64,000 nucleotides of DNA, from the NCBI GenBank assembly GCA_031261345.1, contig JAISKC010000052.1, positions 1 to 64,000 of the forward strand. Reading direction: 5' to 3'. The notes below the pieces were generated by a model, which was not told where the DNA came from, did not search any database, and worked only from the letters and a program-made list of their open reading frames with translations. Both the position numbers and the translations under genes were made by a program. Numbering within the stretch: position 1 is the first letter of the stretch; each line of letters starts with the position of its first letter. The DNA comes from Eubacteriales Family XIII. Incertae Sedis bacterium (GTDB lineage: Bacteria; Bacillota; Clostridia; Peptostreptococcales; Anaerovoracaceae). Positions 10,586 to 33,266 of the stretch are shown here, in pieces.

Positions 10586-12139
10586 ATGAGTGAAGCAACT
10601 TTGACGCTAAATACGCTGCCGGAGCACGATGGGGTCATACTCCAGTGTCATGACAATCCCGATGCTGATACGATAGCCAGTGCTTACGCCCTATATAGGT
10701 ATTTCGATTCTCGCAGCGAGCCCGTCAAACTGGTTTACGGCGGTTTCAATTCCATACAAAAACCGAATCTGTCAATCTTCGTGCAGGAGTTTTCTATGCC
10801 CCTTGAGTTTTTGGGCAAGGAGCCACCTTCAGCAATGGAACTGTTGCCGAAAGACCCTCTGCTTATCACGGTTGACTGCCAACACGGTGCCGGAAATGTG
10901 AAGAGGATAGAAGCGGAAAAGGTCTGTGTTATCGACCATCACATCAAGGAAAAAGACGAATACATCTCGGCTGACATAAGACCGTATCTCGGAAGCTGTG
11001 CGACCGTTGTCTGGACATTACTCAGAGATGCAGGTTGGGATTTGGATGCATATCCGGAGGTTTCAACCGCACTTTATTACGGGCTTTATATGGACACGAA
11101 CAATCTTGCTGAAATGTTTCACCCGTTGGACCGCGACATGCTCGACAGCCTTAAGTTTGATGCACGTTTCATCAAGAAGCTCAAGGGCGTCAATCTGACG
11201 AAGGAAGAGCTCGTCATTGCGGGGCGTGCTCTCGGCGGTGTTCGCTATTTTGACAGTATCGAAAACGTGATGTTTGAAGCGGAGCCTTGCGACCCGAACA
11301 TTCTCGGCTTCATCAGCGACATGACGCTTCAGGTGGACGGCGTGAATACCTGCGTTGGGTTCAGCGAAATCAACGGCGGGGTCAAGCTTTCATTGCGCAG
11401 CTCTACAAACGAAGTCATGGCAAATGAAATGGCTGCCTACCTGACAAATGGTGTCGGAAGCGGCGGCGGTAACAGTGAGAAGGCCGGCGGATTTCTAAAA
11501 TGCCCTGAGGATACGAGGTCGGCTAGGGATTTTCTGTCGGAGCGTATTCAAAATTACTTCCTGACGTACGACAAGATTGTCTCGGGTGTTGACGCACTCG
11601 ATACGAGCAAAATGAAGACGTACAGTAAGAGGCCCATCACGGTGGCATACGTGGAACTGCCGGAAATTTTCACCCTTGGAATGACGATTTCGGTCAGAAC
11701 CATTGAAGGCGATGCAGATTTCGAAATTACTGAGGATACCCTGCTCATGATTGGCATACAGGGCGAAACCTACCCTATCAGCCGCGAAACATTTGACAAA
11801 ACCTACAAAAAACTCGATGGCACGTTCGAATTCAATCTACTGATTGAAGATGAGAAATTCTATGTTCCGACGGCACACGACAAGCTCTACGGCAAACAAT
11901 ATGAGCTTATGCCGTTTGCGAAGCCCTGCGTGCCGACGGGCACATCTTTCATCTACGCGGCACCACTTGAACGCGATACCAAAATTTTCGCATCGTGGTA
12001 TCCGGATGGCTACATGTTCGGAAAGCCGGGGGACTATGTCGCAGTCAGATTCGACAAGCCGTTGAGTTCATATATCATTGAAAATAAAATCTTTGCCTAT
12101 TCGTATGAAGAGGTCGATAGTGAACAAATTCGCTCATGA
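10586..12139 (+). CDS. DHH-family phosphoesterase with an extra C-terminal domain
   Basis: About 517 residues. The DHH domain shows the metal-binding motifs HDNPDADTIASA, VDCQHG and IDHHIKEKDEY, as in RecJ/NrnA/GdpP-type phosphodiesterases that cleave nanoRNA or (cyclic) dinucleotides. A DHHA1-like domain follows, but its usual GGGHxxAAG loop reads GSGGGNSEKAGG, with Asn in place of His. The last ~150 residues (from about YSKRPITVAYVEL to the end) form a beta-rich domain I do not recognise; it carries a KPGDYVAV segment. The ATG at 10586 is preceded by GGAG. The stop lies inside the next gene, which encodes a TIR protein, so the two are translationally coupled. Substrate is unknown. Confidence 0.85.
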   Translation: MSEATLTLNTLPEHDGVILQCHDNPDADTIASAYALYRYFDSRSEPVKLVYGGFNSIQKPNLSIFVQEFSMPLEFLGKEPPSAMELLPKDPLLITVDCQHGAGNVKRIEAEKVCVIDHHIKEKDEYISADIRPYLGSCATVVWTLLRDAGWDLDAYPEVSTALYYGLYMDTNNLAEMFHPLDRDMLDSLKFDARFIKKLKGVNLTKEELVIAGRALGGVRYFDSIENVMFEAEPCDPNILGFISDMTLQVDGVNTCVGFSEINGGVKLSLRSSTNEVMANEMAAYLTNGVGSGGGNSEKAGGFLKCPEDTRSARDFLSERIQNYFLTYDKIVSGVDALDTSKMKTYSKRPITVAYVELPEIFTLGMTISVRTIEGDADFEITEDTLLMIGIQGETYPISRETFDKTYKKLDGTFEFNLLIEDEKFYVPTAHDKLYGKQYELMPFAKPCVPTGTSFIYAAPLERDTKIFASWYPDGYMFGKPGDYVAVRFDKPLSSYIIENKIFAYSYEEVDSEQIRS

Positions 12140-13403
12140 TTATCTGCTGGTTTCGCCTTCGGATGATGGCGATATCAGGATAGCGAGAGATCTCGCCGCC
12201 GCATTGTCTTCATACCGCATACCCAAGGGTATTTCGGAGGAGCATGCTGGCTATGCGGATTTTTCTGAGGATTTCTGCGAGCGGCCTATAACCGAAGAAG
12301 CTGTCAGGCAGCAGATGGACTCGTGCCGTGCGATGATAGTAATTTGTTCTTCACGCACAAAGGAAGACAAAGCTATCTCGGAACGGCTGGAGTATTTTGA
12401 GAAAACCGGTAGGCGGGACGCTATCATACCGGTTCTGGTCAGTGGCGAATCAAGGGATGCCATACCCTCATTCTTTTACACGACGCGGACGATTGAACGT
12501 ATCCTGAAGGATGGGACGACCGAAAAGATCACTGAGGAACTCAGTCCAATCGCCTCGGATCTTCGCGGCGAAAGCAAGTCCGAATACAGGAGCATGCTTG
12601 CATACGAGACCGTGCGAATAGTGGCAGCACTCACGGGGCTTCACCCCGATGAACTCGAAAAACGTCATGAACGTAGGCGCAAGGCGAGGTTTGCCACGCT
12701 TGCACTCGGCATCGGAAGCGTGAGCGTTATCGCTGCCGTGATATTTTTGTATCTTGGATTCATCGCATACAACGAGGGCAATATTGCTGAGAAACAGACC
12801 GCGGCAAGTGGAAAGACGGTGGACAGAATCGTCTCGGATTTGCCGCAGAAAGCCGCGGGAATTTCCGGTGCCGGCACCGTCGTTGATGAGGCTATCTTGG
12901 GCAGCTTAGATGCACTTGTGGCGAATGAAAGTGCAAATCTTCAAAATGTCGAGACTGACAATATCCTCAAAATAAGTGAGGGAGATTCTGCTTCGATTGT
13001 TCTGAAAAAGGCGTCGATACTGCGGCGTCTCGGCGAATATGCAGCTGCGGAAACTGCCTATGAAGCGGCTTTGAGCCTCTCCTCGCTGCTGAAGGAGAAT
13101 GAAGACCGTTACAGAAGTGCCTACAAATATGCCATTTCAGAGGAGCGTGCGGAGGTCGGCTATGTCGTGCTGATAGTAGGCTATGATAGCGATGTGTCTC
13201 CTATTGCACGTGGTGAAATCATCACAGCTTTCGATGGCGTGCCTTTCGCAAAATACAGGGATTACTCGTCCTTTGTTTCGGAATTGATTCCGGGGGCGGT
13301 GAGTAATGCCGAGTTGGTTACAATTTCCGGCGGCAAGTCAGAGCCACGCATGCAGAAAGTAACGACCGAGCAATTGAAGCTTTTGGAATACGTAATATTG
13401 TAG
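12120..13403 (+). CDS. Degenerate TIR domain-TM-TPR-PDZ-like protein
   Basis: I start this at GTG 12120, which has AGAGG 6 bases upstream and overlaps the DHH gene by 20 bases; an ATG at 12105 is the alternative. Residues about 5-130 are TIR-like (DYLLVSPSDDGDIRIARDLA, MIVICSSRT, IIPVLVSGES). The TIR2 neighbour has W-C-D-K-E at the catalytic glutamate; here the aligned segment reads A-I-S-E-R, so NADase activity is doubtful. One membrane span follows near residues 195-215. After it come TPR-like helices (RRLGEYAAAETAYEAALSL) and a C-terminal PDZ-like stretch (ARGEIITAFDGVPFAKYRDY). Topology would place TIR in the cytoplasm and TPR/PDZ outside, by inference. Confidence 0.75.
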   Translation: MNKFAHDYLLVSPSDDGDIRIARDLAAALSSYRIPKGISEEHAGYADFSEDFCERPITEEAVRQQMDSCRAMIVICSSRTKEDKAISERLEYFEKTGRRDAIIPVLVSGESRDAIPSFFYTTRTIERILKDGTTEKITEELSPIASDLRGESKSEYRSMLAYETVRIVAALTGLHPDELEKRHERRRKARFATLALGIGSVSVIAAVIFLYLGFIAYNEGNIAEKQTAASGKTVDRIVSDLPQKAAGISGAGTVVDEAILGSLDALVANESANLQNVETDNILKISEGDSASIVLKKASILRRLGEYAAAETAYEAALSLSSLLKENEDRYRSAYKYAISEERAEVGYVVLIVGYDSDVSPIARGEIITAFDGVPFAKYRDYSSFVSELIPGAVSNAELVTISGGKSEPRMQKVTTEQLKLLEYVIL

Positions 13404-13416
13404 AACAATCGGGAAT

Positions 13417-15561
13417 ATGGGTGAGAAATTGAGCGAGGGAATTTCGAATTTGAAACATAAAGAAGAAGCGTGGACCTATGACGCCTTCATCAGCTACCGG
13501 CACAAGGAGCTCGATAGCAAGGTGGCAGGCGCGGCGCTGTCTTTCCTTGAAAGTTACAGCCTCCCAAAACAATTATCCCAAAGTGGCATTACTGGTATCG
13601 AACGAGTGTTCAGGGACACGGAGGAGCTCGCTGTCTCACGAATTCTGAGCGACACGATTGTCGAAGCTCTGGAAAATACACGATTTCTCGTAGTCATCTG
13701 CTCAACGGACCTTCCGGACTCCTCTTGGTGCGACAAAGAGGTGGCGAGTTTCATCGAACTCGGCAGGTCGCAGAACGTATATGCACTGCTTGTAAACGGA
13801 GATAGGGAAAACTCATTTCTGCCGTCGTTGAAAAAAATTCCTGATATAGGGGATCGATTGCTCGACGCTAGGGTAGAAGGCGTAGACCCATCGGACAAAA
13901 CGAATTACGAAAAGAAGCTCATTTCGAACGTCAAGCGGGAACTCATGCGAGTGGTTTCTGACAAGGCCGACTGTCCTTTTGAGGTGTTGACCGCGCTCGA
14001 TACTCAAAGAAGACATCGAAATACGGCGGTTCGCTTCACCGCATCTGCCGTATCATTTGCGATATTCCTCGCGGTTGCGGCGGGACTTTGGCTCGGTGCG
14101 TCGAGCTTCAGGGATACAGCGCAAAGTGAGCAGGCGGCATCGATGGACATGCTCTACGCGCTCACCTATACACTGCCGGAGGACCTCGCGGAAATTTCGG
14201 GTACCGGAAGGCTCATATCCGATACGCTCCGGCAAAATGTGGCGGACATCGACGCAATACTCAGCATGGCAAAGAACCCTGACTTGGTTGCGCTGCAGAA
14301 GGCGGAAAACCTCATGAAACTCGCGGGCGTCTACAATACTCTCGGCGATACCGAAAGTGCTATTTCATCGGACAGAGAAGCGGTGAGTCTACTCAAGCCC
14401 GCTTTTGAAACCGGCGGCGGCAAGGAAACCTTCTCGTATGCGAAGAGCCTGACGGCACTCGGAAGCAGGTTGAGTGAATCAGGTAGCTTTGATGAAGCCA
14501 AAACGGTACTCACTGAGGCGGTAAGTGTGCAACGCTCGGATTCGACGGCTGCCGGAGCTGCACTGAATCTCGCCGCCTGTTATCAAAATCAAGCTGCAAA
14601 TCTTTCACGCATGGGGCAATATGACGAAGCTATCGAGATACTCCTGTTCTGCGCCGAATATCTGAAGGCTCTGCCGGATTTTGATTCGCAGGCAGTTCAG
14701 CGTTCATACATGAGCACGAGCCAAAACCTCGGGACCGATTTCGCCATGTTGGCGCAGTATGAAGATGCCGCCAATTGGATAGCAAAGCAGGTGGACACCG
14801 CGGAGGCTCTCTATGAAGATAATCCGACGAGAACCAATCTATCCGCTCTTGCTGCCGCCTGTGCTTCGTTTGCGAACACCGCCAATCTTGCGGGAGAAAA
14901 AGCCAATGCGGACGCATACTTTGCGAGAGCGATCGGATATTTCAAAACGCTCGCTTCGGATAGGGACAATGTAGCAGCAGCAGAAGCTCTCGCCACTGCC
15001 TACGCCAATTATGGTGCCTCACTGAACGTTTCGGGCGACTATGAGGGTGCCGCAAAATACTACGACGATGCGCTCGAAATCCGTGATAAATCTGCCAAAT
15101 CCAGCGACGATGCGCAGACCGCGCTCATCGCGAGGCTTTACTACAATATAGCTGAAAATTATTTGGATATGGACGATTTGGCCAAAGCCCGAAAGGCATA
15201 CGATGCATGTCTTGAAAAATACGAACCCGTTTCGGAGGCTCTCGGCGACTATCACAGGTCGGAATATCTGGCACGCCTCTCATATTACGACCTCATCTTC
15301 TTACGCAATCCCACAGAAGCGCAGAGTGTGGCGGAAGAAGCTGTGGCTAAGATGCCGGACTCGTCGTTTGCACACTACATGCTCGCCTACGCAATGCTCT
15401 ACAATGAAGACGCGAGGGCCGTTTCCGAATTTGAACTTCTGACCTCGCGCGGGCAAAATGAAAGAGACAACATCAGAGAGGATTTGGCGATGCAGACACG
15501 GATAGGTCTGACCTCTTCAATTACCGCCACCATTAATGTTTCACTTGACTTTTCAAAGTGA
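13417..15561 (+). CDS. TIR domain-TM-TPR repeat protein
   Basis: A 714-residue protein starting 13 bp after the previous gene. The TIR domain (residues about 20-150) begins YDAFISYRHKELD and includes RVFRDTEEL, LVVICSTDL and SSWCDKEVASFIELG, where the W-x3-E glutamate expected for NAD hydrolysis is present. A single membrane span lies near 205-225 (FTASAVSFAIFLAVAAGLWL). The rest is an array of about eight to nine TPR-like helical pairs with NTLGDTESAISSDREAV, YANYGASLNVSGDYEGAAKY and similar. This is the class of membrane TIR-TPR proteins seen in Clostridia; no experimentally defined role is known to me. Co-encoding with a truncated-motif TIR and a DHH phosphoesterase suggests a signalling or defence operon. 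Confidence 0.85.
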   Translation: MGEKLSEGISNLKHKEEAWTYDAFISYRHKELDSKVAGAALSFLESYSLPKQLSQSGITGIERVFRDTEELAVSRILSDTIVEALENTRFLVVICSTDLPDSSWCDKEVASFIELGRSQNVYALLVNGDRENSFLPSLKKIPDIGDRLLDARVEGVDPSDKTNYEKKLISNVKRELMRVVSDKADCPFEVLTALDTQRRHRNTAVRFTASAVSFAIFLAVAAGLWLGASSFRDTAQSEQAASMDMLYALTYTLPEDLAEISGTGRLISDTLRQNVADIDAILSMAKNPDLVALQKAENLMKLAGVYNTLGDTESAISSDREAVSLLKPAFETGGGKETFSYAKSLTALGSRLSESGSFDEAKTVLTEAVSVQRSDSTAAGAALNLAACYQNQAANLSRMGQYDEAIEILLFCAEYLKALPDFDSQAVQRSYMSTSQNLGTDFAMLAQYEDAANWIAKQVDTAEALYEDNPTRTNLSALAAACASFANTANLAGEKANADAYFARAIGYFKTLASDRDNVAAAEALATAYANYGASLNVSGDYEGAAKYYDDALEIRDKSAKSSDDAQTALIARLYYNIAENYLDMDDLAKARKAYDACLEKYEPVSEALGDYHRSEYLARLSYYDLIFLRNPTEAQSVAEEAVAKMPDSSFAHYMLAYAMLYNEDARAVSEFELLTSRGQNERDNIREDLAMQTRIGLTSSITATINVSLDFSK

Positions 15562-23777: not shown

Positions 23778-25523
23778 TCAGTAGGAACTTCCCCCGACAA
23801 AAATTACAGAGCCGCCTGCTCGTCGTCCTATTGTACGTTGGTATCCCGCAGATATGGCAATGATATCCCTCCATTCTGCCACATCACATTGTCCATAATC
23901 ATTTCTACCTTTAGCAATTACAGAGTCATCCGCTCTTAGCCCTATTGTATGAGAAGCCCCTGCAGATATGGCAATGATGTCCCTCCATTCTGATACATCA
24001 CATTGTCCAAAATCATTCTTCCCGATAGCAATTACAGAACCGTCCGCTCGCAGCCCTACTGTGTAAAATTTCCCCGCAGATACGGCAATGATATCCTTCC
24101 ATTCTGATACATCACATTGTCCGTAATCATTTCTACCCGCAGCAATTACAGAGCCGTCCGCTCTTAGCCCTATTGTATGAGAAGCCCCTGCAGATATGGC
24201 AATGATATCCCTCCATTCTGCCACATCACATTGTCCGTAATCATTCCTACCTGTAGCAAATACAGAGCCATCCGCTCGAAGACCTACTGTGTAATAATAC
24301 CCTGCAGATATGGCAATAATATATCTCCATCCTGATAAATCACACTGCCCATTATCATTTCTACCCGCAGCAATTACGGAGCCGTCCGCTCTTAGCCCTA
24401 CTGTATGAGAAACTCCTGCAGATACGGCAATGACATGACCCCATTCTGATACTTCACATTGCCCATTACCATTTCTACCCGTAGCACTTACAGAACCGTC
24501 TGCTCGTATCCACACTTTGTGATAATATCCTGCAGACATCTCGTCGGAACCCGAATGCCTTGTTGCCTCAAACAACAATTCCAGTGTTGCATCAAGCTGA
24601 CTCTCCGCATCATGATAATTTCCGGCTTGCTCAAATTTAGTAACTGCGCCTCTGTAATCCTCAGCTTCAACCAAAGACAAAGCTTCTGAATAAGCTGATT
24701 TTGCCTCTACGTTTGGAATGATTATTGCATAAACAATAATGAACACAGCAAAAACGGATACAAGCGACAAAGAGATTGTTAGATATCTTTTCTTTCTTTT
24801 TCGCTCTATCTTTTGAACCTCATCTCGATGCCGGCCAACTTTATTATAACCTTGCATATTAAATCCATCTTTATCAAGTCCGTCTCTGTTGTAGCCGTTT
24901 CTCCCATAGCCGGCACGATTATAACCACCCCTATTGTATCCTTCTTTGTTATAACCAGACCTGTCGTAACAGGCACGATCATAGCCAACGCGATTGTAAC
25001 CTTTTCGATCATATCCATCCTTGTCAAAACCAGCCTTATCGTATCCATCTCTTGCATACCCATTTCGGTTATAGCCATCTTTTCCGTACCCCGCCCGATT
25101 GTAACCATTTCTATAGCCTTCTTTATCATAACCATCTTTGTCGTAACCAGTTCGATCAAATCCATCTTTACCATATCCGGCACGGTCGTAACCAGCCCTA
25201 TCGTAACCATTTTTATCATAACCATCTCTGCCGTATGTCGAAGAAGCACCCGTTTCTGCTTTTGCTTTTGCACCCGACTTTTTTTCCGAGCTTGACGTAT
25301 TCTTGTGGCTATAGCTCCTGCTGTAGTTGAAACTTTGGCTATGTCCACTCAAATAATCGTATGCAGCATTGATTTCCCGCATACGTTCCTCCGCCAAATC
25401 CTGCAATGGGTTGTCAAGATGCTTATCCGGGTGAAACTCCTTCACAAGCTTTCGATAAGCAGCCTTGATTTCCTCTGCACTTGCAGAAGGCTTAACTCCT
25501 AATACTTTGTACGGATCACTCAT
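23778..25523 (-). CDS. J-domain / GY-pentapeptide repeat / TM / RCC1-repeat protein
   Basis: 581 residues. Residues 1-60 are a canonical J domain (PYKVLGVKPSASAEEIK, with HPD at 31-33). Residues 101-230 are 26 tandem units of G-Y-[DN]-[RK]-x (25 pentads, one tetrad). A basic stretch and one membrane helix (about 248-270) follow, then a TPR-like helical pair (LVEAEDYRGAVTKFEQAGNYHDAE). From about residue 329 to the end are six full 38-residue RCC1-like repeats (SAG...GLRADGSV...GRNDYGQCDVSEW) and a shorter seventh, consistent with a seven-bladed propeller. J domains recruit and activate Hsp70. RCC1 propellers bind proteins or nucleic acids. The membrane helix would put the J domain in the cytoplasm and the propeller outside. 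I know of no characterised protein with this order. Confidence 0.85.
   Translation of the reverse strand: MSDPYKVLGVKPSASAEEIKAAYRKLVKEFHPDKHLDNPLQDLAEERMREINAAYDYLSGHSQSFNYSRSYSHKNTSSSEKKSGAKAKAETGASSTYGRDGYDKNGYDRAGYDRAGYGKDGFDRTGYDKDGYDKEGYRNGYNRAGYGKDGYNRNGYARDGYDKAGFDKDGYDRKGYNRVGYDRACYDRSGYNKEGYNRGGYNRAGYGRNGYNRDGLDKDGFNMQGYNKVGRHRDEVQKIERKRKKRYLTISLSLVSVFAVFIIVYAIIIPNVEAKSAYSEALSLVEAEDYRGAVTKFEQAGNYHDAESQLDATLELLFEATRHSGSDEMSAGYYHKVWIRADGSVSATGRNGNGQCEVSEWGHVIAVSAGVSHTVGLRADGSVIAAGRNDNGQCDLSGWRYIIAISAGYYYTVGLRADGSVFATGRNDYGQCDVAEWRDIIAISAGASHTIGLRADGSVIAAGRNDYGQCDVSEWKDIIAVSAGKFYTVGLRADGSVIAIGKNDFGQCDVSEWRDIIAISAGASHTIGLRADDSVIAKGRNDYGQCDVAEWRDIIAISAGYQRTIGRRAGGSVIFVGGSSY
23781..24539 (-). 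repeat. 114-bp tandem repeats encoding RCC1 units
   Basis: Six consecutive 114-bp units and one partial unit encode the RCC1-like repeats. Adjacent units are nearly identical over long stretches (for example the segment for AISAGASHTIGLRAD occurs twice), which suggests recent expansion by unequal recombination. Confidence 0.85.
24837..25223 (-). repeat. 15-bp minisatellite encoding GY[DN][RK]x pentapeptides
   Basis: 26 tandem units of 15 bp, with one 12-bp unit, all in frame. The G-Y core and the basic fourth position are kept while the fifth residue varies, indicating selection at protein level as well as repeat slippage. Confidence 0.85.
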
Positions 25524-25564: not shown

Positions 25565-26272
25565 TTAATTGGTGCACTGTAAATCCCTAGGACAAGTGGA
25601 TTCAGTTGTGCCGCATTTATAAAATTTATGTAGCTCACAGTAATCCTCTTTTATTATTACCTTCTTGTCCCTATCGTCGTCCGTGTACTGAATAATAGAT
25701 TTTAGTAGTTCCTTCGTTTCTAAATCCATTTGGCACCCTATTATTACCTCACTAATTTTCACATTCACAGTTTTCGTTGGGGCTTTCGTAAATACACGCA
25801 CCTCTTTTTCGTGTAACCATTCTTCTGATTTATGTTTGAGAATTCTTAGGGCTGTCTCCTCATTTATAGTTATACAATTTGATAAATGTGGTATCTCTTT
25901 GTATATAATTTCTTCTACTCTGTAATTATCTGTATCTATTTCAACACCAATTACAATTCCTTTATGATTATCTGCATAATGTGACCACATTACTTGGCTC
26001 TTGTCCGTTTTTGAAAGCGATAGTATTCTAAATTCGCATTTCCATTCAAGCAATTTTTCACGTGTTTCGAGTGACAGTAAATCGGAAGACATTTCTGTAT
26101 CATTTACACGCAGTTCATCAAGTACTTTTGTCCTATCAAACCCCAAAAACGTGAATATACCTTCTCTGAAATCGTTTTGTTCATTGAAGCCCGCAGCATA
26201 TAGTCTATTATTCAGAAAAATATCCACGATTCTACCGAAGTTTTCAAGTGACCTATATTTGTAGTAAATCAT
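25565..26272 (-). CDS. DUF2971 domain protein
   Basis: 235 residues with the DUF2971 hallmarks: YYKYRSLENFGRIVDIFLNNRLYAAGFNEQND at the start, then FRILSLSKTDKSQVMWSHYADNHKGIVIGVE and WLHEKEVRVF. The family is widespread, often in islands and phages, and has no agreed biochemical function. It lies 41 bp upstream of the J-domain gene on the same strand and may be cotranscribed. Its promoter region overlaps a 10-bp-arm palindrome shared with the divergent XRE gene. Confidence 0.85.
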   Translation of the reverse strand: MIYYKYRSLENFGRIVDIFLNNRLYAAGFNEQNDFREGIFTFLGFDRTKVLDELRVNDTEMSSDLLSLETREKLLEWKCEFRILSLSKTDKSQVMWSHYADNHKGIVIGVEIDTDNYRVEEIIYKEIPHLSNCITINEETALRILKHKSEEWLHEKEVRVFTKAPTKTVNVKISEVIIGCQMDLETKELLKSIIQYTDDDRDKKVIIKEDYCELHKFYKCGTTESTCPRDLQCTN

Positions 26273-26332
26273 TTTATTCCAAATCTCTAATATTTGTCCT
26301 CATAATCTACGAAAATGTAATTACATTACTTT

Positions 26333-26366
26333 AACACATATGTATTCAAATGACAACATATGTGTT
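26333..26366. promoter_or_regulatory. Palindromic operator candidate between DUF2971 and XRE genes
   Basis: AACACATATG (26333-26342) is perfectly complementary to CATATGTGTT (26357-26366) with a 14-base spacer. It lies between divergent genes and overlaps a weak minus-strand TTGTCA-17-TAAAGT promoter. A site for the adjacent XRE repressor is inferred. Confidence 0.5.
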
Positions 26367-26401
26367 CATAGTTTTTGCATTCACAATCTACAATTATAAA
26401 T

Positions 26402-26668
26402 ATGGAAACTATAATGATTGACCCTATAATTGTTGGAAATGTAATTCAAAACTGTCGCCAAGAAAAAGGCGTATCGCAGGAGGTATTAAGTGGCTTTGCT
26501 GGAATAGGTCGGACACATTTAAGTGCAATTGAGCGCGGAGAGCGAAAACCCACATTGGAAACTTTCTGTCATATCGCGGTTGCACTTGGTATGAAGTCAA
26601 GCGAGTTACTTTCAGTTATTGAATCAAAAATATACGAATCCGCTGAAAATTTTTCAGATACGAAATGA
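26402..26668 (+). CDS. XRE-family helix-turn-helix regulator
   Basis: About 88 residues containing a classic Cro/C1-type HTH (VIQNCRQEKGVSQEVLSGFAGIGRTHLSAIERGERKPTLETF, residues about 9-50). The start at ATG 26402 is chosen over the upstream one, which lies in the promoter; ATG 26414 is also possible. It is divergent from the DUF2971 gene and probably controls the palindrome between them. Confidence 0.8.
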   Translation: METIMIDPIIVGNVIQNCRQEKGVSQEVLSGFAGIGRTHLSAIERGERKPTLETFCHIAVALGMKSSELLSVIESKIYESAENFSDTK

Positions 26669-26735
26669 AAATTAGTATGTATCAAGTCTATAGTGCTGTG
26701 CCTTTCGATAGAAGAAATAGGTAGGAGATAGAATT

Positions 26736-26960
26736 ATGGATTGTGATAGGCTAAAGAAATTAAGACAGAAAAAAGGATATACACAAATTAAAATCCAGTT
26801 GCTTACAGGTATTGACCAATCAGATTATTCAAAAATCGAAAAGGGTATAAGATATCCAACCGTTGAGCAGGCAAAACGTTTGGCACTTGTGTTTGAGACA
26901 AGCACAGATTATATATTCTGCTTAACAGATGAAGAAACCCCATATCCGAGAAGAAGCTAG
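26736..26960 (+). CDS. Small XRE-family helix-turn-helix protein
   Basis: 74 residues, nearly all one HTH domain (LKKLRQKKGYTQIKIQLLTGIDQSDYSKIEKGIRYPTVEQAKRLA). GGAG precedes the ATG by 8 bases. It is 67 bp downstream of the first XRE gene and last in the island before the right repeat. Confidence 0.8.
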   Translation: MDCDRLKKLRQKKGYTQIKIQLLTGIDQSDYSKIEKGIRYPTVEQAKRLALVFETSTDYIFCLTDEETPYPRRS

Positions 26961-27005
26961 CCCGTTTTCCCGCACAGAAATTTATTGATGGGTGGAAAAA
27001 AGGTT

Positions 27006-27047
27006 ACAGCAGCCTTCACCACCGGCCATCTAGCCGGCATGGCATCA
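27006..27047. repeat. Right 42-bp direct repeat (att-like) of the 3.7-kb island
   Basis: Copy of 23275-23316 with one mismatch (27011). The reading frame of the flavoprotein continues through it for 12 more codons to a stop at about 27080. Confidence 0.85.
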
Positions 27048-27055
27048 CGAAATAA

Positions 27056-27526
27056 TTACTTCGAAAGGCTTGCGTTCAGCTGATTATTGATAATATCCTC
27101 TGTGATTTCGGAAGCCTCCATCACATAACGCCTACATTGCTTTCGCCTTTCCGGTGCCTCCCACTCAAAGCCCGTAGTCAGGACTCGGCAACAAGTTGCC
27201 TTATTTATTTCCTTAAATCGGTCGTGAAGTTCATTCGTTACCTTGAGGATAAGCTCGTTTGATTCATCGGGCGCAAGCCTACCTGCAATCAGGCTCAGCG
27301 CCATGACGCAGCCGGTGATACCTCCGCAAAGACAACCGGATTTTCCGAGTCCGGCGGTGAATCCGGAGGCAATTTTGAGACATTCCTCCGGCAATCCCAA
27401 CTCGTAGAACTCATTGAAAGCCCTGATCGTTGACTCACTGCACGAAAGCTTATTCGCATGATAAAAATCAGCGAGTTCGGTAGCATTCGCCCAAGTTTTT
27501 TTCTCGTCAATATGTTTATCACTCAT
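27056..27526 (-). CDS. C_GCAxxG_C_C family protein
   Basis: 156 residues starting MSDKHIDEKKTWANA, with AGAGGAA upstream. The conserved cysteine pattern is present: SCSES, GKSGCLCGGITGC, KATCCRVLT and RRKQCRRYV. The family is thought to be a redox or metal-binding membrane-associated group in anaerobes; function is not established. It is convergent with the flavoprotein/island side. Confidence 0.85.
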   Translation of the reverse strand: MSDKHIDEKKTWANATELADFYHANKLSCSESTIRAFNEFYELGLPEECLKIASGFTAGLGKSGCLCGGITGCVMALSLIAGRLAPDESNELILKVTNELHDRFKEINKATCCRVLTTGFEWEAPERRKQCRRYVMEASEITEDIINNQLNASLSK

Positions 27527-27621
27527 AAAATTTCCTCTCACTCGAAGTTACTAAACAGTCATCGCATAAAATTATTATATCACGAGATTTATAATAATTT
27601 ATTTTGTGCTACAATTTATCA

Positions 27622-28272
27622 ATGGAAAATAGTGTACACAAAATGCCTGTATGGATTGAGCCCCTGTTTGATTTGCTCTATTTAATTGCGGGGCTAATCA
27701 TCGCAGGCTTTCTATTCGCAGGCGATGCCGGCTATATCGGGCAACTCTATGGAGCGATGGCGTTGGTGCTCGTTCTTGGCGACAGCTTCCATCTAATTCC
27801 CCGTATCCTGTGTGCCGCAGGAAAGAGCGCGAAAGTCGAGACTGCAAAAGGCATAGGCCTCTGCATCACATCGATCACCATAACGGTTTTCTATCTAATG
27901 CTATATGGCGTGTACTGTCGCTATTTCGGTTTCTCGCAGCCATGGCTCACCTGCACGATTTGGGCACTCGCCGCTTTTAGGATTCTCCTGTGCCTATTTC
28001 CCCAAAATCACTGGCTCAGTGGGGACAGCGGGCGTTGGGGCATATATCGAAACATTCCATTCGCCTTGTTAGGCTTGGTCTTGGCTGCATTGTTCGCAAC
28101 AAATATGACTGTGTCAGGCCCATTTCAGTTGATGTCAATAGCCATCATTTTGAGCTTCGGCTTCTATCTTCCGGTAGTTCTGCTATCAAAAAAACATCCC
28201 AAGATAGGAATGCTGATGCTACCAAAAACCTGCACATACATCTGGATGCTGACCATGGGCTTAGCCCTTTAG
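27622..28272 (+). CDS. Polytopic membrane protein of unknown function
   Basis: About 216 residues with six to seven hydrophobic helices (for example LIAGLIIAGFLFAGDAGYI and GLCITSITITVFYLMLYGVY). No family signature is recognised. I use the ATG at 27622 (MENSVHK); no strong ribosome binding site is visible. Bases 28273-28494 downstream hold no gene that I can support. Confidence 0.65.
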   Translation: MENSVHKMPVWIEPLFDLLYLIAGLIIAGFLFAGDAGYIGQLYGAMALVLVLGDSFHLIPRILCAAGKSAKVETAKGIGLCITSITITVFYLMLYGVYCRYFGFSQPWLTCTIWALAAFRILLCLFPQNHWLSGDSGRWGIYRNIPFALLGLVLAALFATNMTVSGPFQLMSIAIILSFGFYLPVVLLSKKHPKIGMLMLPKTCTYIWMLTMGLAL

Positions 28273-28494
28273 GGATTCCATTCCCACTCGACCAAGGTTG
28301 ATTATCCTGTTTTAGAAACGATTGTTTTTCAATGTTTCATATATTAGCTATGTGTTTTTATACGCAAATAGCATTTTTTAACAATCCAAAAATGTGGATA
28401 ATTTCAAGTAATCTCGATGTGTTTGAAGAAATGGCAGAATATTATTATACGGAGCCATCTGAGAAAATCGGTCTGCATCAATGTCACCTATTAT

Positions 28495-31400
28495 CTAGAA
28501 ATCGATGTTTCTCGCCGTTTTTGCTTTCAGTAGACCGCTGGGTGCGCTTAGGCTATCACTGAGGCACTGCATACAACCGAAGACCAAAAACGAGTCTTTC
28601 GCTCTTGATACGGCTACGTTCATCAAACTCTTGTTGTGGTCGATAAAGAAACAACCGTCGTCCGCACCGTATACACTCGAAAAAATAATGATATTTCGTT
28701 CCGCTCCCTGAAACGTGTGTATCGTGCCTACAGTGATATTTGCCGCTATTTCCGGCAGTGTGCGTTTGAGCCGTTTCCTTATTTCGGCAGCCTGACTTTT
28801 GAATGGCGTGATGACGCCCAAAAGGTTTGTCTCGTTCAATTTCCCGTTGCCGTGAATCCGATTCCGATACCGCTGCACAATTTCACCATAATTGTCTCCA
28901 ATCCATGATACGATCGCTTCGGCTTCGTCATGATTGACCCGACTACTGCCACACTTTACAGATGCATCGGCAAATACTTCCCTGTGCCCCATCGCGGGGA
29001 GAAACCCACTCAGCGCATTTTGAGAATCGTTCTCCGCCGGCCCTCTCTTGGGCTGCAACCTGCCGTGGTAGACTAGCGTGTTGCAGTATTCAATAATGTC
29101 ATCGTAACATCGTCTGTGTTCACAGAGGAACAGACCTTTGCCATATTGGATTGCTTGATCGAATTTGCATGACAGTGAAGCGACCTTCATCAGGCTTGAC
29201 GTAGAACAGTTGAGGCCGTTTCCCTCCTGTATGCGAAATGCTGTCTTGTTTAAAATTACTCCATTGCGAATCGCCATGGCAATGTCCAGTGCCCGCGTTG
29301 TGCCCCAAACCGGTGGAATCTGATTTTCATCTCCAACAACAATAGCTTTTTTTGCCAGTGAAAAAGAGGCGGCCGCTATTTCGGGTGAAGTCTGTCCAGC
29401 CTCATCAACGATTAACAAATCGATATAGCCATACATATAAAATTCATTCTTTGTATTACCGTCATAAGCCAGGAATTGTTTTGGCAGCATGAAAAATGTC
29501 ATGACCATACACGGCGCAATCATCGCCAGCCGCCGGTAACGGTTTTCGAGTACGTCAACGAAATTGCGTTTCTTTTGGTTTTCCGTGAGTGTATCTTCTT
29601 CGGACAGCCATATGCTTTCATAATAGTGAACCGCCAGCCAGAATTCAATATATCGTATTTTGTCGAGAGCGTTGCTAAGTTTGCTCAAATCGAAATCATC
29701 CAAAGCAGATTCTATGACATTTTCAAAAGGCGTTGCTTTATGACTTTTTAGTTCCGCAAATAACTCTGTTAATTTTTCAAATAAGAGAATCAGATCTGCT
29801 TTTCTTTGCTGGAGCTGTTCAATGCTATTTTCTGTTTCCTCAATTCTTGTATTGAACTCCTTGATTTTGTGATGATTGTCGACAAGTTTTTCTTCATAGC
29901 CTTTTGTGATTTCGCCAAATGCCGTACCTCGGTCAAAGTACTCCAATTCTTCTTCCATAGTGAAGGTAAAAGACCAATGGTAAAGTTTCTTTTTAAAAGC
30001 CGGAAGGAATTTCAGACACCGCCAGAACCACGGCAATTTTTGATAGGCCCCTGTCCATTCCGTAATACGGCAATGCAAACGCAAATTTTCCCCGTCAATG
30101 TTGTGGATTTTTTCTTTCAACACGTCTATATTTTCACACAGCGATTTTTCTTCTGTATCAAGTTTTGACAAATAGCCTGTGTAGGAATCCTCGCCAATTA
30201 CATTTTTGATTTCTGCCGCGACTTCAATGCTTTGATCCCGAAGCTTATCTACCGTCTTTAGTTCCGAAAGTATTTTGTCGCGGCAGGCCGCTATGCCGAC
30301 TACCGGTTCCTCAAAATATTGCTGACACCCCTCCAACATACAGACCATCGATTTTTTCCGGATATCCTCCGCTTCCATATCTTCAATGAAATAATTTCCC
30401 CGCACATCTGTGTATTGATAATTGTTTTTTTTCGCATCGTCTCGTTTCGATTTCGAGGAAGAAGGGAAATAGACAGCAAAACTATGTGCCCCATCGATCC
30501 ATCTTCTTTCGAGATTTGTGCAACAAACCGGATTGATTTTGCTAAAGGAATCAATGATATTTGTAACGGCCTGATTGATGGTGGAGGTTGCTACAATGAT
30601 TGGCGGATCCGCCGCTTTCAGCGCACGGGAAACGTACATATCCGCAACGATGGATTGGAGTAGGGTTGTTTTACCTGTACCCGGAGGCCCGTTCACGGCC
30701 AAGATTTCGCCATTGCCCAACACATTGAAATGGTGGAGTGCTTCCCGTTGTGACGGCGATAAGGGATATTCTCCGTTCATCTGGCCGCCATGCCGTTTCA
30801 TCATATCCGTATCGTCGTTGGCAATCATCGGCACAGATGCTTCCGTAATGCCGTCTGTCAATTTTGAGTAGAGCGGCTTTTCTGTATCCGTATTCGCAAG
30901 TAGATGATCGTAGAGCTTTTGAATATGAACGGTGGCTAATACGGTTTCATCCTTGAAAATATAGTAACGGCCATCGGTACCGATTCGATTTCCGTGAATC
31001 GATATTTCATCCTCATCGAATTTCGATTTGGTAACGACCTCGTACATTTGCCTAGTATAATCCAAATATTTTTTCCATGAGTCAATCTGATTTTTCTCAG
31101 CAATCGTGCTTTCTAAATACCGGTCGTAGTCTTCCTCGCTGCCGATGCTAAGTTCTGGTTCTATCATTGGTGTCAAATATTCGCGAGGAATCCATGGCAG
31201 CCTTCCGTCATCTCCACCAGTCATCGAAAGAATGCCCTGTCTACTTAGTAAAGCCGGCAAAAACAGGATAGACGTCATTTCCTCAGGATCGAAAGCTGAA
31301 ATTACCGCGTTTGTGATGTCTAGCCGGATGGTCTTTAGGGCAATAATAATCGGAATACTCTGGCGTTTACTTTTTTGCGCAGAGATCTTCTCCTCCTCTT

Positions 31401-31563
31401 CTTCATCCTTTTTTTTAAAGAGCACCTTCGCAACGCGCTGCGAAACATTTCCGTTTTCAATTTCTTCCATGCTAATGATTTCAAATGGATTGAATCGGTA
31501 ATCTATCGTCGGATTGTTCTGCGCGACAACTGCGTTTCTGAAGTATTTTGTTACAGCATCCAT
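28495..31563 (-). CDS. SF1 (Upf1-like) helicase/AAA domain protein
   Basis: 1022 residues. Walker A is GPPGTGKTTLLQ (near residue 295), motif II reads LLIVDEAGQTSPE (near 720), and the C-terminal half contains VVGDENQIPPVW, LCEHRRC, VGTIHTFQGAERN and VAVSRAKDSFLVFG, the DEXX-box motifs of the Upf1/Dna2-like AAA_11/AAA_12 superfamily. The first 250 residues are poorly conserved, and residues about 430-650 form a coiled-coil insertion between motifs I and II. No nuclease or phospholipase D domain is visible at the C-terminus. It lies 144 bp downstream of an AlbA_2-type protein on the same strand. Large stand-alone helicases of this type are frequent in defence islands; that role here is inference. 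Confidence 0.85.
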   Translation of the reverse strand: MDAVTKYFRNAVVAQNNPTIDYRFNPFEIISMEEIENGNVSQRVAKVLFKKKDEEEEEKISAQKSKRQSIPIIIALKTIRLDITNAVISAFDPEEMTSILFLPALLSRQGILSMTGGDDGRLPWIPREYLTPMIEPELSIGSEEDYDRYLESTIAEKNQIDSWKKYLDYTRQMYEVVTKSKFDEDEISIHGNRIGTDGRYYIFKDETVLATVHIQKLYDHLLANTDTEKPLYSKLTDGITEASVPMIANDDTDMMKRHGGQMNGEYPLSPSQREALHHFNVLGNGEILAVNGPPGTGKTTLLQSIVADMYVSRALKAADPPIIVATSTINQAVTNIIDSFSKINPVCCTNLERRWIDGAHSFAVYFPSSSKSKRDDAKKNNYQYTDVRGNYFIEDMEAEDIRKKSMVCMLEGCQQYFEEPVVGIAACRDKILSELKTVDKLRDQSIEVAAEIKNVIGEDSYTGYLSKLDTEEKSLCENIDVLKEKIHNIDGENLRLHCRITEWTGAYQKLPWFWRCLKFLPAFKKKLYHWSFTFTMEEELEYFDRGTAFGEITKGYEEKLVDNHHKIKEFNTRIEETENSIEQLQQRKADLILLFEKLTELFAELKSHKATPFENVIESALDDFDLSKLSNALDKIRYIEFWLAVHYYESIWLSEEDTLTENQKKRNFVDVLENRYRRLAMIAPCMVMTFFMLPKQFLAYDGNTKNEFYMYGYIDLLIVDEAGQTSPEIAAASFSLAKKAIVVGDENQIPPVWGTTRALDIAMAIRNGVILNKTAFRIQEGNGLNCSTSSLMKVASLSCKFDQAIQYGKGLFLCEHRRCYDDIIEYCNTLVYHGRLQPKRGPAENDSQNALSGFLPAMGHREVFADASVKCGSSRVNHDEAEAIVSWIGDNYGEIVQRYRNRIHGNGKLNETNLLGVITPFKSQAAEIRKRLKRTLPEIAANITVGTIHTFQGAERNIIIFSSVYGADDGCFFIDHNKSLMNVAVSRAKDSFLVFGCMQCLSDSLSAPSGLLKAKTARNIDF

Positions 31564-31707
31564 AATCCGTCTCCTTTCGACTCCGCAAGGATTGATTCTG
31601 TGAATAAATTATCACCTAACGAAGTGTTTTTCAAATGTTATGCTATCACCATTGCATCCAAATATTTTTTGGAAGCGGTTGTTTTACATAAAAATCACTT
31701 AATTTGC

Positions 31708-33180
31708 TTACTCATCTCGTAACCGAATATACTTATTTCCCCTGTCGCCTCTCTTACCTAAAAGGCGCACTTCATTCTGTTCAATCAGTTTGCCAAGTGA
31801 ATATCTCACCTGTGAAAGAGTCAACCCTGTTTTATTCGCGATCTCTATCCTTGATAATGGAGCATCAAACAATGCGGCTAATACGATATCTGTATTATTT
31901 GCCTTATTGACATAACCTACATTGCCCTTCGTCATCGTTGGGTTTTGCAAGATAGCCGTGAAATATATGCCGCCATCAAAGAACTTTGGTAGTGCAAATC
32001 CATATTTCTTACATTCAGCGTAAATCTTTGGAATTCCACTCCCTAACTTTTCAATGATATTTGCTTCTCCTTTAGTGGAAACAAACTGACATATTTCTGC
32101 TAACCTTGCATTACGTGCTACCGAGGCCGTATTCCCCAGTTCCGAAAGGGATATTCCATATAGGCCGCCGGGATTGCTGATTACAAGTCCTTTATCCTCT
32201 ATAGTAAGACTAATATTTTGAGTCATTGATAGCGGATTAAGATCACGATGAATCAGCGCGTTTGCAATCAATTCCCTTGTTGATACCGGTGGGTATTCCT
32301 TTACTTTCGCTACCATACCTCCGGAAATATCCTTCGTCAATTCATTACTGTTATCCAAAACCCATTTTGTTACATCTTCCAAAATCACAGGTATAGGTCC
32401 GTCGAAGACCCTTACATTGGTTGCCCTTACATCATCCGATACTACAGAGCTTTTTTTAACACTTGCTTGAATCGAATAATTTGGGAAGAACTGCTGCGGA
32501 TATATACCCAATGTCAAAATACCTGCAACAGTGACCTCTCCAGTACCTGAAATAACTCCGGAACGTAATAAGACCTCATCGTCTGTCATTTCATTCAATA
32601 CGGTCGAAAAGTTTTTCCTCTCGGCGATATATGATTTGCATAATTCCTGATTTAAATCCATTACGCTCGACTCCGGTACAATATCTTCATCAAACCGCGC
32701 AATGCCTCTGTTGGATATAAAAATCTGTTCTTCAAGAGATGATAATTCAAAATCACTATCATACATTCGTATGTATGCTTTCCCTGTTTTCCCAACCTTA
32801 ACGGGTTTAAGCGATTTGTCTGATTCAAGAACATCAGCAAGTATGACCGACCCATTTTCATGCATAATCAATTCACTCTTGAAAGTAATTCTCGAACTAA
32901 ATTCATTTTTTGCATATGCCGCCAATGTTTGTTGACATTGTTTGCTATCGTATACACCGACAACTGTAAAGTTTTGATTTTCATCTACACCAAAAACAAG
33001 CGTGCCACCGCCCGGCGTATTCGCAAAAGCACTTATCGTCTTTACCGCTGTTTCAGAAAATCCCTTTGCAGCTGCCTTTGCCTCATATTGCCTGTTGTCA
33101 CTATGTTCAGCCTGAAGTATCTGAATAATCTCCTTTAGGCGATTTTCTTGTTTCTCACTATTCATGGAATAAGCATACAC
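31708..33180 (-). CDS. AlbA_2/Schlafen-type ATP-binding transcriptional regulator-like protein
   Basis: 490 residues. The N-terminal AlbA_2 (divergent AAA-4/Schlafen-like) domain has YEAKAAAKGFSETAVKTISAFANTPGGGTLVFGVDE. A central HATPase_c_4-type region contains PPVSTRELIANALIHRDLN and LGSGIPKIYAECKKYG. The C-terminus is a winged helix (IEIANKTGLTLSQVRYSLGKLIEQNEV). The start could also be ATG 33165; neither has an ideal Shine-Dalgarno. The leader contains three 21-bp repeats. These proteins are usually annotated as putative transcriptional regulators, and autoregulation through the repeats is plausible. Confidence 0.85.
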   Translation of the reverse strand: MYAYSMNSEKQENRLKEIIQILQAEHSDNRQYEAKAAAKGFSETAVKTISAFANTPGGGTLVFGVDENQNFTVVGVYDSKQCQQTLAAYAKNEFSSRITFKSELIMHENGSVILADVLESDKSLKPVKVGKTGKAYIRMYDSDFELSSLEEQIFISNRGIARFDEDIVPESSVMDLNQELCKSYIAERKNFSTVLNEMTDDEVLLRSGVISGTGEVTVAGILTLGIYPQQFFPNYSIQASVKKSSVVSDDVRATNVRVFDGPIPVILEDVTKWVLDNSNELTKDISGGMVAKVKEYPPVSTRELIANALIHRDLNPLSMTQNISLTIEDKGLVISNPGGLYGISLSELGNTASVARNARLAEICQFVSTKGEANIIEKLGSGIPKIYAECKKYGFALPKFFDGGIYFTAILQNPTMTKGNVGYVNKANNTDIVLAALFDAPLSRIEIANKTGLTLSQVRYSLGKLIEQNEVRLLGKRGDRGNKYIRLRDE

Positions 33181-33203: not shown

Positions 33204-33266
33204 ACATTGCTAAATTACACCTTCACATTGCTAAATTGCACCTTCACATTGCTAAATTGCATATAA
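33204..33266. repeat. Three 21-bp tandem repeats upstream of the AlbA_2 gene
   Basis: Units at 33204, 33225 and 33246 share ACATTGCTAAATTGCACCTTC; the third is degenerate at its end. The 21-bp period equals two helical turns. On the gene's strand the repeats also read as an open 15-codon peptide (MQFSNVKVQFSNVKV). Confidence 0.85.

Follow-up and report, generated by a model that had tools for sequence, protein, structure and literature searches.

J-domain proteins are usually viewed as chaperone helpers that deliver clients to Hsp70 or fix it in place. Extracellular propellers on single-pass receptors are found in plants, where ACR4/CRINKLY4 carries a kinase inside the cell. The membrane-bound J-proteins DjlA and the tail-anchored DjlB and DjlC combine a J domain with a membrane helix and thereby put Hsp70 at the cytoplasmic face (PMC8215388). 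BLIP-II, built of seven short RCC1-type blades, is a secreted protein binder (PMC9218822). The stretch of DNA analysed here (64,000 nucleotides, below called the window) encodes a protein of 581 aa (P0001) that, like DjlA, DjlB and DjlC, contains a J domain and a membrane helix; however, its J domain is N-terminal, a tract of 136 residues precedes the helix, and a large ectodomain follows it. P0001 is a real and apparently undescribed domain combination among membrane J-proteins rather than a new kind of machine. The domains are arranged in the order J domain (with the HPD motif), G[YF][DN][RK]x tract, basic stretch, transmembrane (TM) helix, TPR-like repeat, and seven RCC1-type blades. This order, proposed in the original prediction, was borne out by the continuous reading frame, Pfam matches, hydropathy, and homology of individual segments. 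The features of the locus are as follows.

23778..25523, minus strand: gene of the J-domain membrane protein, 581 aa (ORF, translation, Pfam)
25338..25517, minus strand: J domain, residues 3-62, with HPDK at 31-34 and a basic helix II (Pfam, J-domain matches in PDB, paralogue)
25236..25337, minus strand: Ser/Lys-rich linker, residues 63-96 (sequence; AF2 pLDDT <50)
24828..25235, minus strand: G[YF][DN][RK]x tract, residues 97-232, 26 units, 18 of them strict (pattern count, paralogue, AF2 model)
24786..24827, minus strand: basic juxtamembrane stretch, residues 233-246 (count of K/R before the helix)
24714..24785, minus strand: single TM helix, residues about 247-270, predicted N-in/C-out (hydropathy, flanking charge)
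24558..24713, minus strand: TPR-like repeat YxxAxxLxxxxxYxxAxxxFxxxGxYxDA, residues 271-322 (paralogue, homologous segments)
23781..24536, minus strand: seven-bladed BLIP-II-type RCC1 propeller, residues 330-581, 38 aa per blade (Pfam, AF2, Foldseek, TIR-domain protein L333)
25565..26272, minus strand: DUF2971 gene directly upstream, 41-bp gap, PADLOC PDC-S31 (ORF list, Pfam, PADLOC)
26333..26366, no strand assigned: inverted repeat of 16 nt, 88%, candidate XRE operator (divergent intergenic region)
26375..26668, plus strand: divergent XRE-like HTH regulator (ORF; HTH family by sequence inspection)

The J gene is uninterrupted and starts with ATG, just 5' of which lies a Shine-Dalgarno-like AAAGGA. 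As the source assembly is a draft (91 contigs, 94.6% complete), an assembly error or frameshift could have fused two genes, one for a J-protein and one for an RCC1 protein, a possibility already raised together with the original prediction. We consider it extremely improbable, since the ORF is continuous, a 49%-identical paralogue on another contig keeps the order J domain, tract, TM helix, and stalk, and L333, a TIR-domain protein from another genome, retains the junction between stalk and propeller. Both repeat regions had also been claimed to be prone to copy-number change, which may apply to one of them. Blade units in the 114-bp array (TRF scores 850-955; best register 228 bp, or two blades) are 75-91% identical to one another in DNA, and slippage-driven change in their number is plausible. 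The 15-bp array encoding the tract (TRF 62% matches, score 62) is hardly a DNA repeat, and the divergence of its units contradicts the claim. Near-perfect short tandem repeats of 21 bp were observed elsewhere in the window, at 33204-33261 (97%) and 44849-44889 (100%).

The J domain is matched by the Pfam DnaJ model at residues 3-62 (E 1.9e-17, 63.6 bits against a cut-off of 27.8) and by J-domain structures in PDB. The HPDKH sequence is invariant between P0001 and its paralogue, and P0001 also has the YxxLG..KAAYRKL features. Pfam finds neither the zinc finger nor the C-terminal substrate domains of classes A and B, and full-length NCBIfam DnaJ models align over the J part only; judging by the HPD motif and the missing class A/B domains, P0001 fits the class C J-domain proteins. 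It falls outside the DjlA family, as the NCBIfam DjlA model yields 47.2 bits against a cut-off of 162 and covers only the J domain. The closest J domains (53-62% identity) belong to a J-TPR protein of about 200 aa that is common in the bacterial family, which makes local recruitment of the J domain probable. The copy of this protein in the same genome (L006) likewise has a G/S/Y-rich linker after the J domain, but contains neither the GY[DN][RK]x tract nor an ectodomain. Two candidate Hsp70 partners are encoded in the genome: DnaK (E 1e-247) and a second Hsp70-like protein of 564 aa (L316:1267-2961, G000:C46), which stays below cut-off for both the DnaK and the HscA model and possibly is a dedicated partner of the membrane J-protein. 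The J domain may interact productively with DnaK, of which a J domain alone is no proof.

Counting degenerate ones, the tract has 26 units; 18 of these fit G[YF][DN][RK]x. The original prediction of 26 GY[DN][RK]x pentapeptides was therefore right about the number of units, when degenerate ones are included, and wrong about the pattern, which only 16 fit. The 136 residues include 31 G, 23 Y, 17 R, 11 K, and 22 D/E, and an irregular short unit, GYRNGYNRAGY, is common to the paralogue. The tract occupies the position taken in DnaJ, and in the family's short J-TPR proteins, by the Gly-rich linker behind the J domain. All 18 strict units differ in DNA: third-codon positions agree in only 32-53%, although the encoded residues are conserved; hence the pattern is maintained by selection on the protein, and an origin by chance low complexity or DNA slippage was rejected.

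A tract of this kind may phase-separate or bind RNA, as suggested in the original prediction. The composition rich in Gly, Tyr, and Arg, the maintenance of the pattern at the protein level despite DNA divergence, and its recurrence in unrelated proteins could also mean that the tract is the working part of the molecule, that is, a condensate-forming or self-associating Tyr/Arg-rich region at the membrane whose assembly is controlled by the J domain. A pattern scan of named genomes revealed the tract in at least 84 ORFs encoding unrelated proteins of Firmicutes, Actinobacteria, Ignavibacteria, Nitrosopumilus, and others; being so widespread in bacteria and archaea, it is not special to P0001. 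The tract adjoins a TM helix in some clostridial proteins (L030, L032, L071, L125, and L170), which accords with a role at the membrane, and does not in most tract proteins; with a strong hydrophobic stretch within 65 residues in 6 of the 84 ORFs listed, the tract was rejected as a general membrane-adjacent element. None of the 84 ORFs listed contains a J domain; accordingly, the tract is no hallmark of J-proteins and its pairing with this domain is not general. AF2, run with 17 sequences, predicts an ordered solenoid (pLDDT 88), which argues against a condensate as well; however, AF2 is known to yield confident but unrealistic solenoids for repeat sequences (PMC11795689), so that this value does not settle whether the tract is ordered or disordered. 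We regard a condensate-forming tract as the functional part of P0001 as very unlikely. The tract may conceivably form a pentapeptide quadrilateral beta-helix, but the Pfam Pentapeptide model gave no match to it, and a Foldseek search of the AF2 tract model against PDB gave none either.

Some tract proteins form groups of their own. Proteins of about 250 aa from Nitrosopumilus and other Thaumarchaeota, several of them marine ammonia-oxidising archaea (L058, L079, L085, L100, and L136), consist almost wholly of GY[DN][RK]x units. Several clostridial proteins (L078, L170, L071, and L032) have a hydrophobic N-terminus, a GY tract, and an alpha-helical domain that by eye is HEPN/DUF4145-like. Six typical tract strings were searched for in the full-text literature and none was present.

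The TM helix stands out in the hydropathy profile, with a 19-residue mean of 2.76 compared to 0.80 for the next best segment elsewhere in P0001. There are ten K/R among the 20 residues before it, and one K/R and five D/E after it. By the positive-inside rule, basic residues before the helix and acidic ones after it place the J side inside the cell and the propeller side outside, and a single-pass N-in/C-out topology is well supported as a prediction. The segment after the helix is not named by Pfam; its TPR-like nature is supported by homology to TM and TPR-like segments of other membrane proteins. AF2 confidence is low over the TM helix and stalk (residues 243-326).

Pfam RCC1_2 recognises six scoring repeats in the ectodomain (E 1.1e-52, 175 bits against a cut-off of 22), and inspection of the units gives seven blades, namely six full ones of 38 aa and a shortened last one. 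The AF2 model of residues 329-577, based on six sequences, contains seven strand sets with pLDDT mostly 78-96, consistent with a closed seven-bladed fold. Foldseek found BLIP-II to be the best match of this model (E 5.6e-22, TMt 0.80, 1.6 A), followed by UVR8, RCC1, and the ectodomain of the receptor kinase ACR4 (7a0j, TMt 0.73). BLIP-II shares the seven short RCC1-type blades (38 aa each in P0001), but is free and secreted and has a beta-lactamase as its target, while the propeller of P0001 is predicted to be membrane-tethered; the similarity of the model to BLIP-II indicates a fold, not a ligand. ACR4/CRINKLY4 also has a seven-bladed RCC1-like ectodomain on a single-pass receptor; being eukaryotic, with a kinase inside, it is related to P0001 by the propeller fold only. 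Blade-to-blade variation is concentrated at positions 4, 5, 19, and 24 of the 38, and somewhat at 17, 33, and 34, in an otherwise invariant frame, which suggests that the variable positions form a binding face. The propeller probably binds a ligand. Another membrane use of such propellers was observed in ABC-transporter permeases of 610 aa from two relatives (L192, ORF from 689, plus strand; L193:1272-3104), in which the first helix is separated from the permease core by an inserted RCC1 propeller.

The paralogue of P0001 (518 aa, L002:1501-3057, G000:C71:46131) shares with it the J domain, linker, tract, TM helix, and TPR-like stalk, i.e., the first 320 residues or so (49% identity over 346 aligned columns), and ends in DUF6273 in place of the RCC1 propeller. 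Since the stem is shared and the tail differs, the C-terminal domain is the exchangeable part of these proteins and the fusion is no artefact. DUF6273 has been modelled as a C-type-lectin-like domain in phage receptor-binding proteins (PMC10743442). Relatives of both ectodomains have export features, which supports their location outside the cell: four DUF6273 proteins are signal-peptide or lipoprotein-like (L214, L219, L237, and L319), and RCC1 proteins have a signal peptide with an SLH-like C-terminus (L207), an N-terminal anchor (L334), or a lipoprotein-like form (L336). Diversification of DUF6273 by a diversity-generating (DGR) mechanism was considered and rejected, as no reverse transcriptase (RVT_1) was found in the genome assembly. 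The two domain types also occur together in one soluble-looking protein of the same genome (L003:409-1959, G000:C23), with no evident TM helix, signal peptide, or J domain, and followed by an unnamed 273-aa gene.

A profile of the TM helix and stalk built from the two paralogues recovers this segment in numerous DUF6273 proteins of Clostridia, the better matches having E values of 6e-20 to 6e-7. Five clostridial TIR proteins (L333, L200, L217, L221, and L228) have a homologous tail of TM helix, TPR-like segment, and RCC1 or DUF6273 domain, and show the same exchange. Two of them (L200 and L217) are arranged as zinc ribbon-TPR-TIR-TM-TPR-like-DUF6273, and L333 (genome G160) as zinc ribbon-TPR-TIR-TPR-TM-TPR-like-RCC1; the tail of the latter is 43% identical to residues 272-574 of P0001 (E 1e-83), including the conserved stalk-propeller junction. 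As L221 (TIR-TM-DUF6273) comes from the same genome as L333, RCC1 and DUF6273 alternate on a TIR stem in that genome, just as both do on a J stem in the genome of the window. P0001 thus fits, by sequence, a set of modular membrane proteins with TM, TPR-like, and RCC1/DUF6273 parts. The cytoplasmic output in the five proteins is a TIR domain with a zinc ribbon and TPRs, whereas P0001 has a J domain and the tract there. The J domain sits where the modular receptor set has TIR, and no other observation speaks as strongly as this parallel in tail exchange for a modular, receptor-like design in which J provides the output. The domain order, the exchange of ectodomains between two paralogues, and the cassette common with TIR proteins can all be read from the sequences.

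The reading that we prefer, with roughly even confidence, is a single-pass membrane J-protein receptor that would couple binding outside the cell to local recruitment of Hsp70. An Hsp70 recruiter in the membrane whose binding domain lies outside, along the lines of the original prediction, is still the best reading; the DUF6273 paralogue and the TIR receptors that share the tail lend it further weight. The BLIP-II/RCC1-type propeller, on its short TPR-like stalk, would bind a ligand outside, probably a protein or an envelope component, and the lectin-like DUF6273 domain would be the ligand binder of the paralogue. Inside, the long tract of Gly, Tyr, and charged residues would space the J domain from the membrane. 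The helix and stalk may carry the engaged protein to a particular site or into clusters, and the J domains would recruit DnaK or the second Hsp70-like protein to the membrane face where the outer domain is engaged, stimulating the Hsp70 ATPase and triggering ATP hydrolysis on a local client. The TM-stalk-ectodomain tail would serve as an exchangeable cassette, with J replacing TIR as the cytoplasmic output. In this scheme, we infer the ligand, the client, the Hsp70 recruitment, and the transmembrane signal. More tentatively, P0001 may represent a class of transmembrane receptors with interchangeable ectodomains and TIR sisters, in which an outside ligand is read by the J domain inside and Hsp70 is the first signalling step. 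If J does stand in the place of TIR in modular receptors, outside-in control of Hsp70 could be tested directly in bacteria, and a natural scaffold with an exchangeable ectodomain and output domain would be at hand.

The same architecture could serve as a static dock, in which the propeller or lectin-like domain ties the protein to a structure of the envelope while DnaK is kept by the J domain near a membrane site, for example one of secretion or membrane-protein assembly, with no ligand-dependent signal. Known membrane J-proteins do act as localisers, DjlA with DnaK among them, and the RCC1 homologue L207 has an SLH-like cell-wall anchor at its C-terminus, so that such propellers do occur in wall-bound proteins. 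A stem that carries either of two different ectodomains, and the parallel exchange in TIR proteins, fit ligand-specific receptors better than a fixed dock, and we find static docking rather doubtful.

The DUF2971 gene upstream is probably on the same transcript as the J gene. Both J loci consist of a divergent XRE gene, one small gene, and the J gene in this order, and the divergent intergenic region contains inverted repeats; the small gene differs, being DUF2971 at one locus and an unnamed 185-aa protein at the other. The J unit is likely an acquired, regulated accessory unit. It lies in a stretch of low GC content (23.4-33.2 kb, 41.7% vs. 49.2%). Here the region 25565-33180 resembles a defence island in its gene content, which includes DUF2971 (PADLOC PDC-S31), an AlbA/Schlafen-like gene with a score to a pAgo-labelled profile, and an MkoC-like helicase (E 3e-269). 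TIR domains in bacteria are common in defence, and phage sensing by the bNACHT25 system requires DnaJ (PMC12169576). Together with the common layout of the two loci, these observations are compatible with a defence or conflict component, in which an XRE-controlled accessory gene senses a phage or competitor at the envelope and responds via Hsp70. Neither P0001 nor the paralogue is matched by a PADLOC model, the small genes differ, and a neighbourhood alone proves nothing; a defence role of the J unit is only possible and, in our estimate, unlikely.

A profile of the J domain and tract was run against three overlapping genome sets, drawn from the family (350 genomes), the class (391), and the phylum (398). 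The combination was found only in the genome of the window, in two copies; other matches were J-only or tract-only. With two such proteins, both in one draft genome, there is no cross-species conservation to show that the combination was selected. Phage or plasmid origin was rejected, the matches listed being J-only or due to repeat composition and covering at most 45% of the query; viral origin was rejected too, as matches on viral contigs were J-only, with no tract. The expectation that the architecture matches no described protein held: no Pfam or NCBIfam model covers the whole of P0001, and no comparable J-protein was found in the full-text literature or the genomes searched, although a survey of J-protein domain partners may list J with RCC1. 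Two adjacent TIR-like membrane proteins are also encoded in the window (12078-13403 and 13417-15561, plus strand; TIR_2 E 9e-4 and 7e-6), each with a hydrophobic helix and TPRs.
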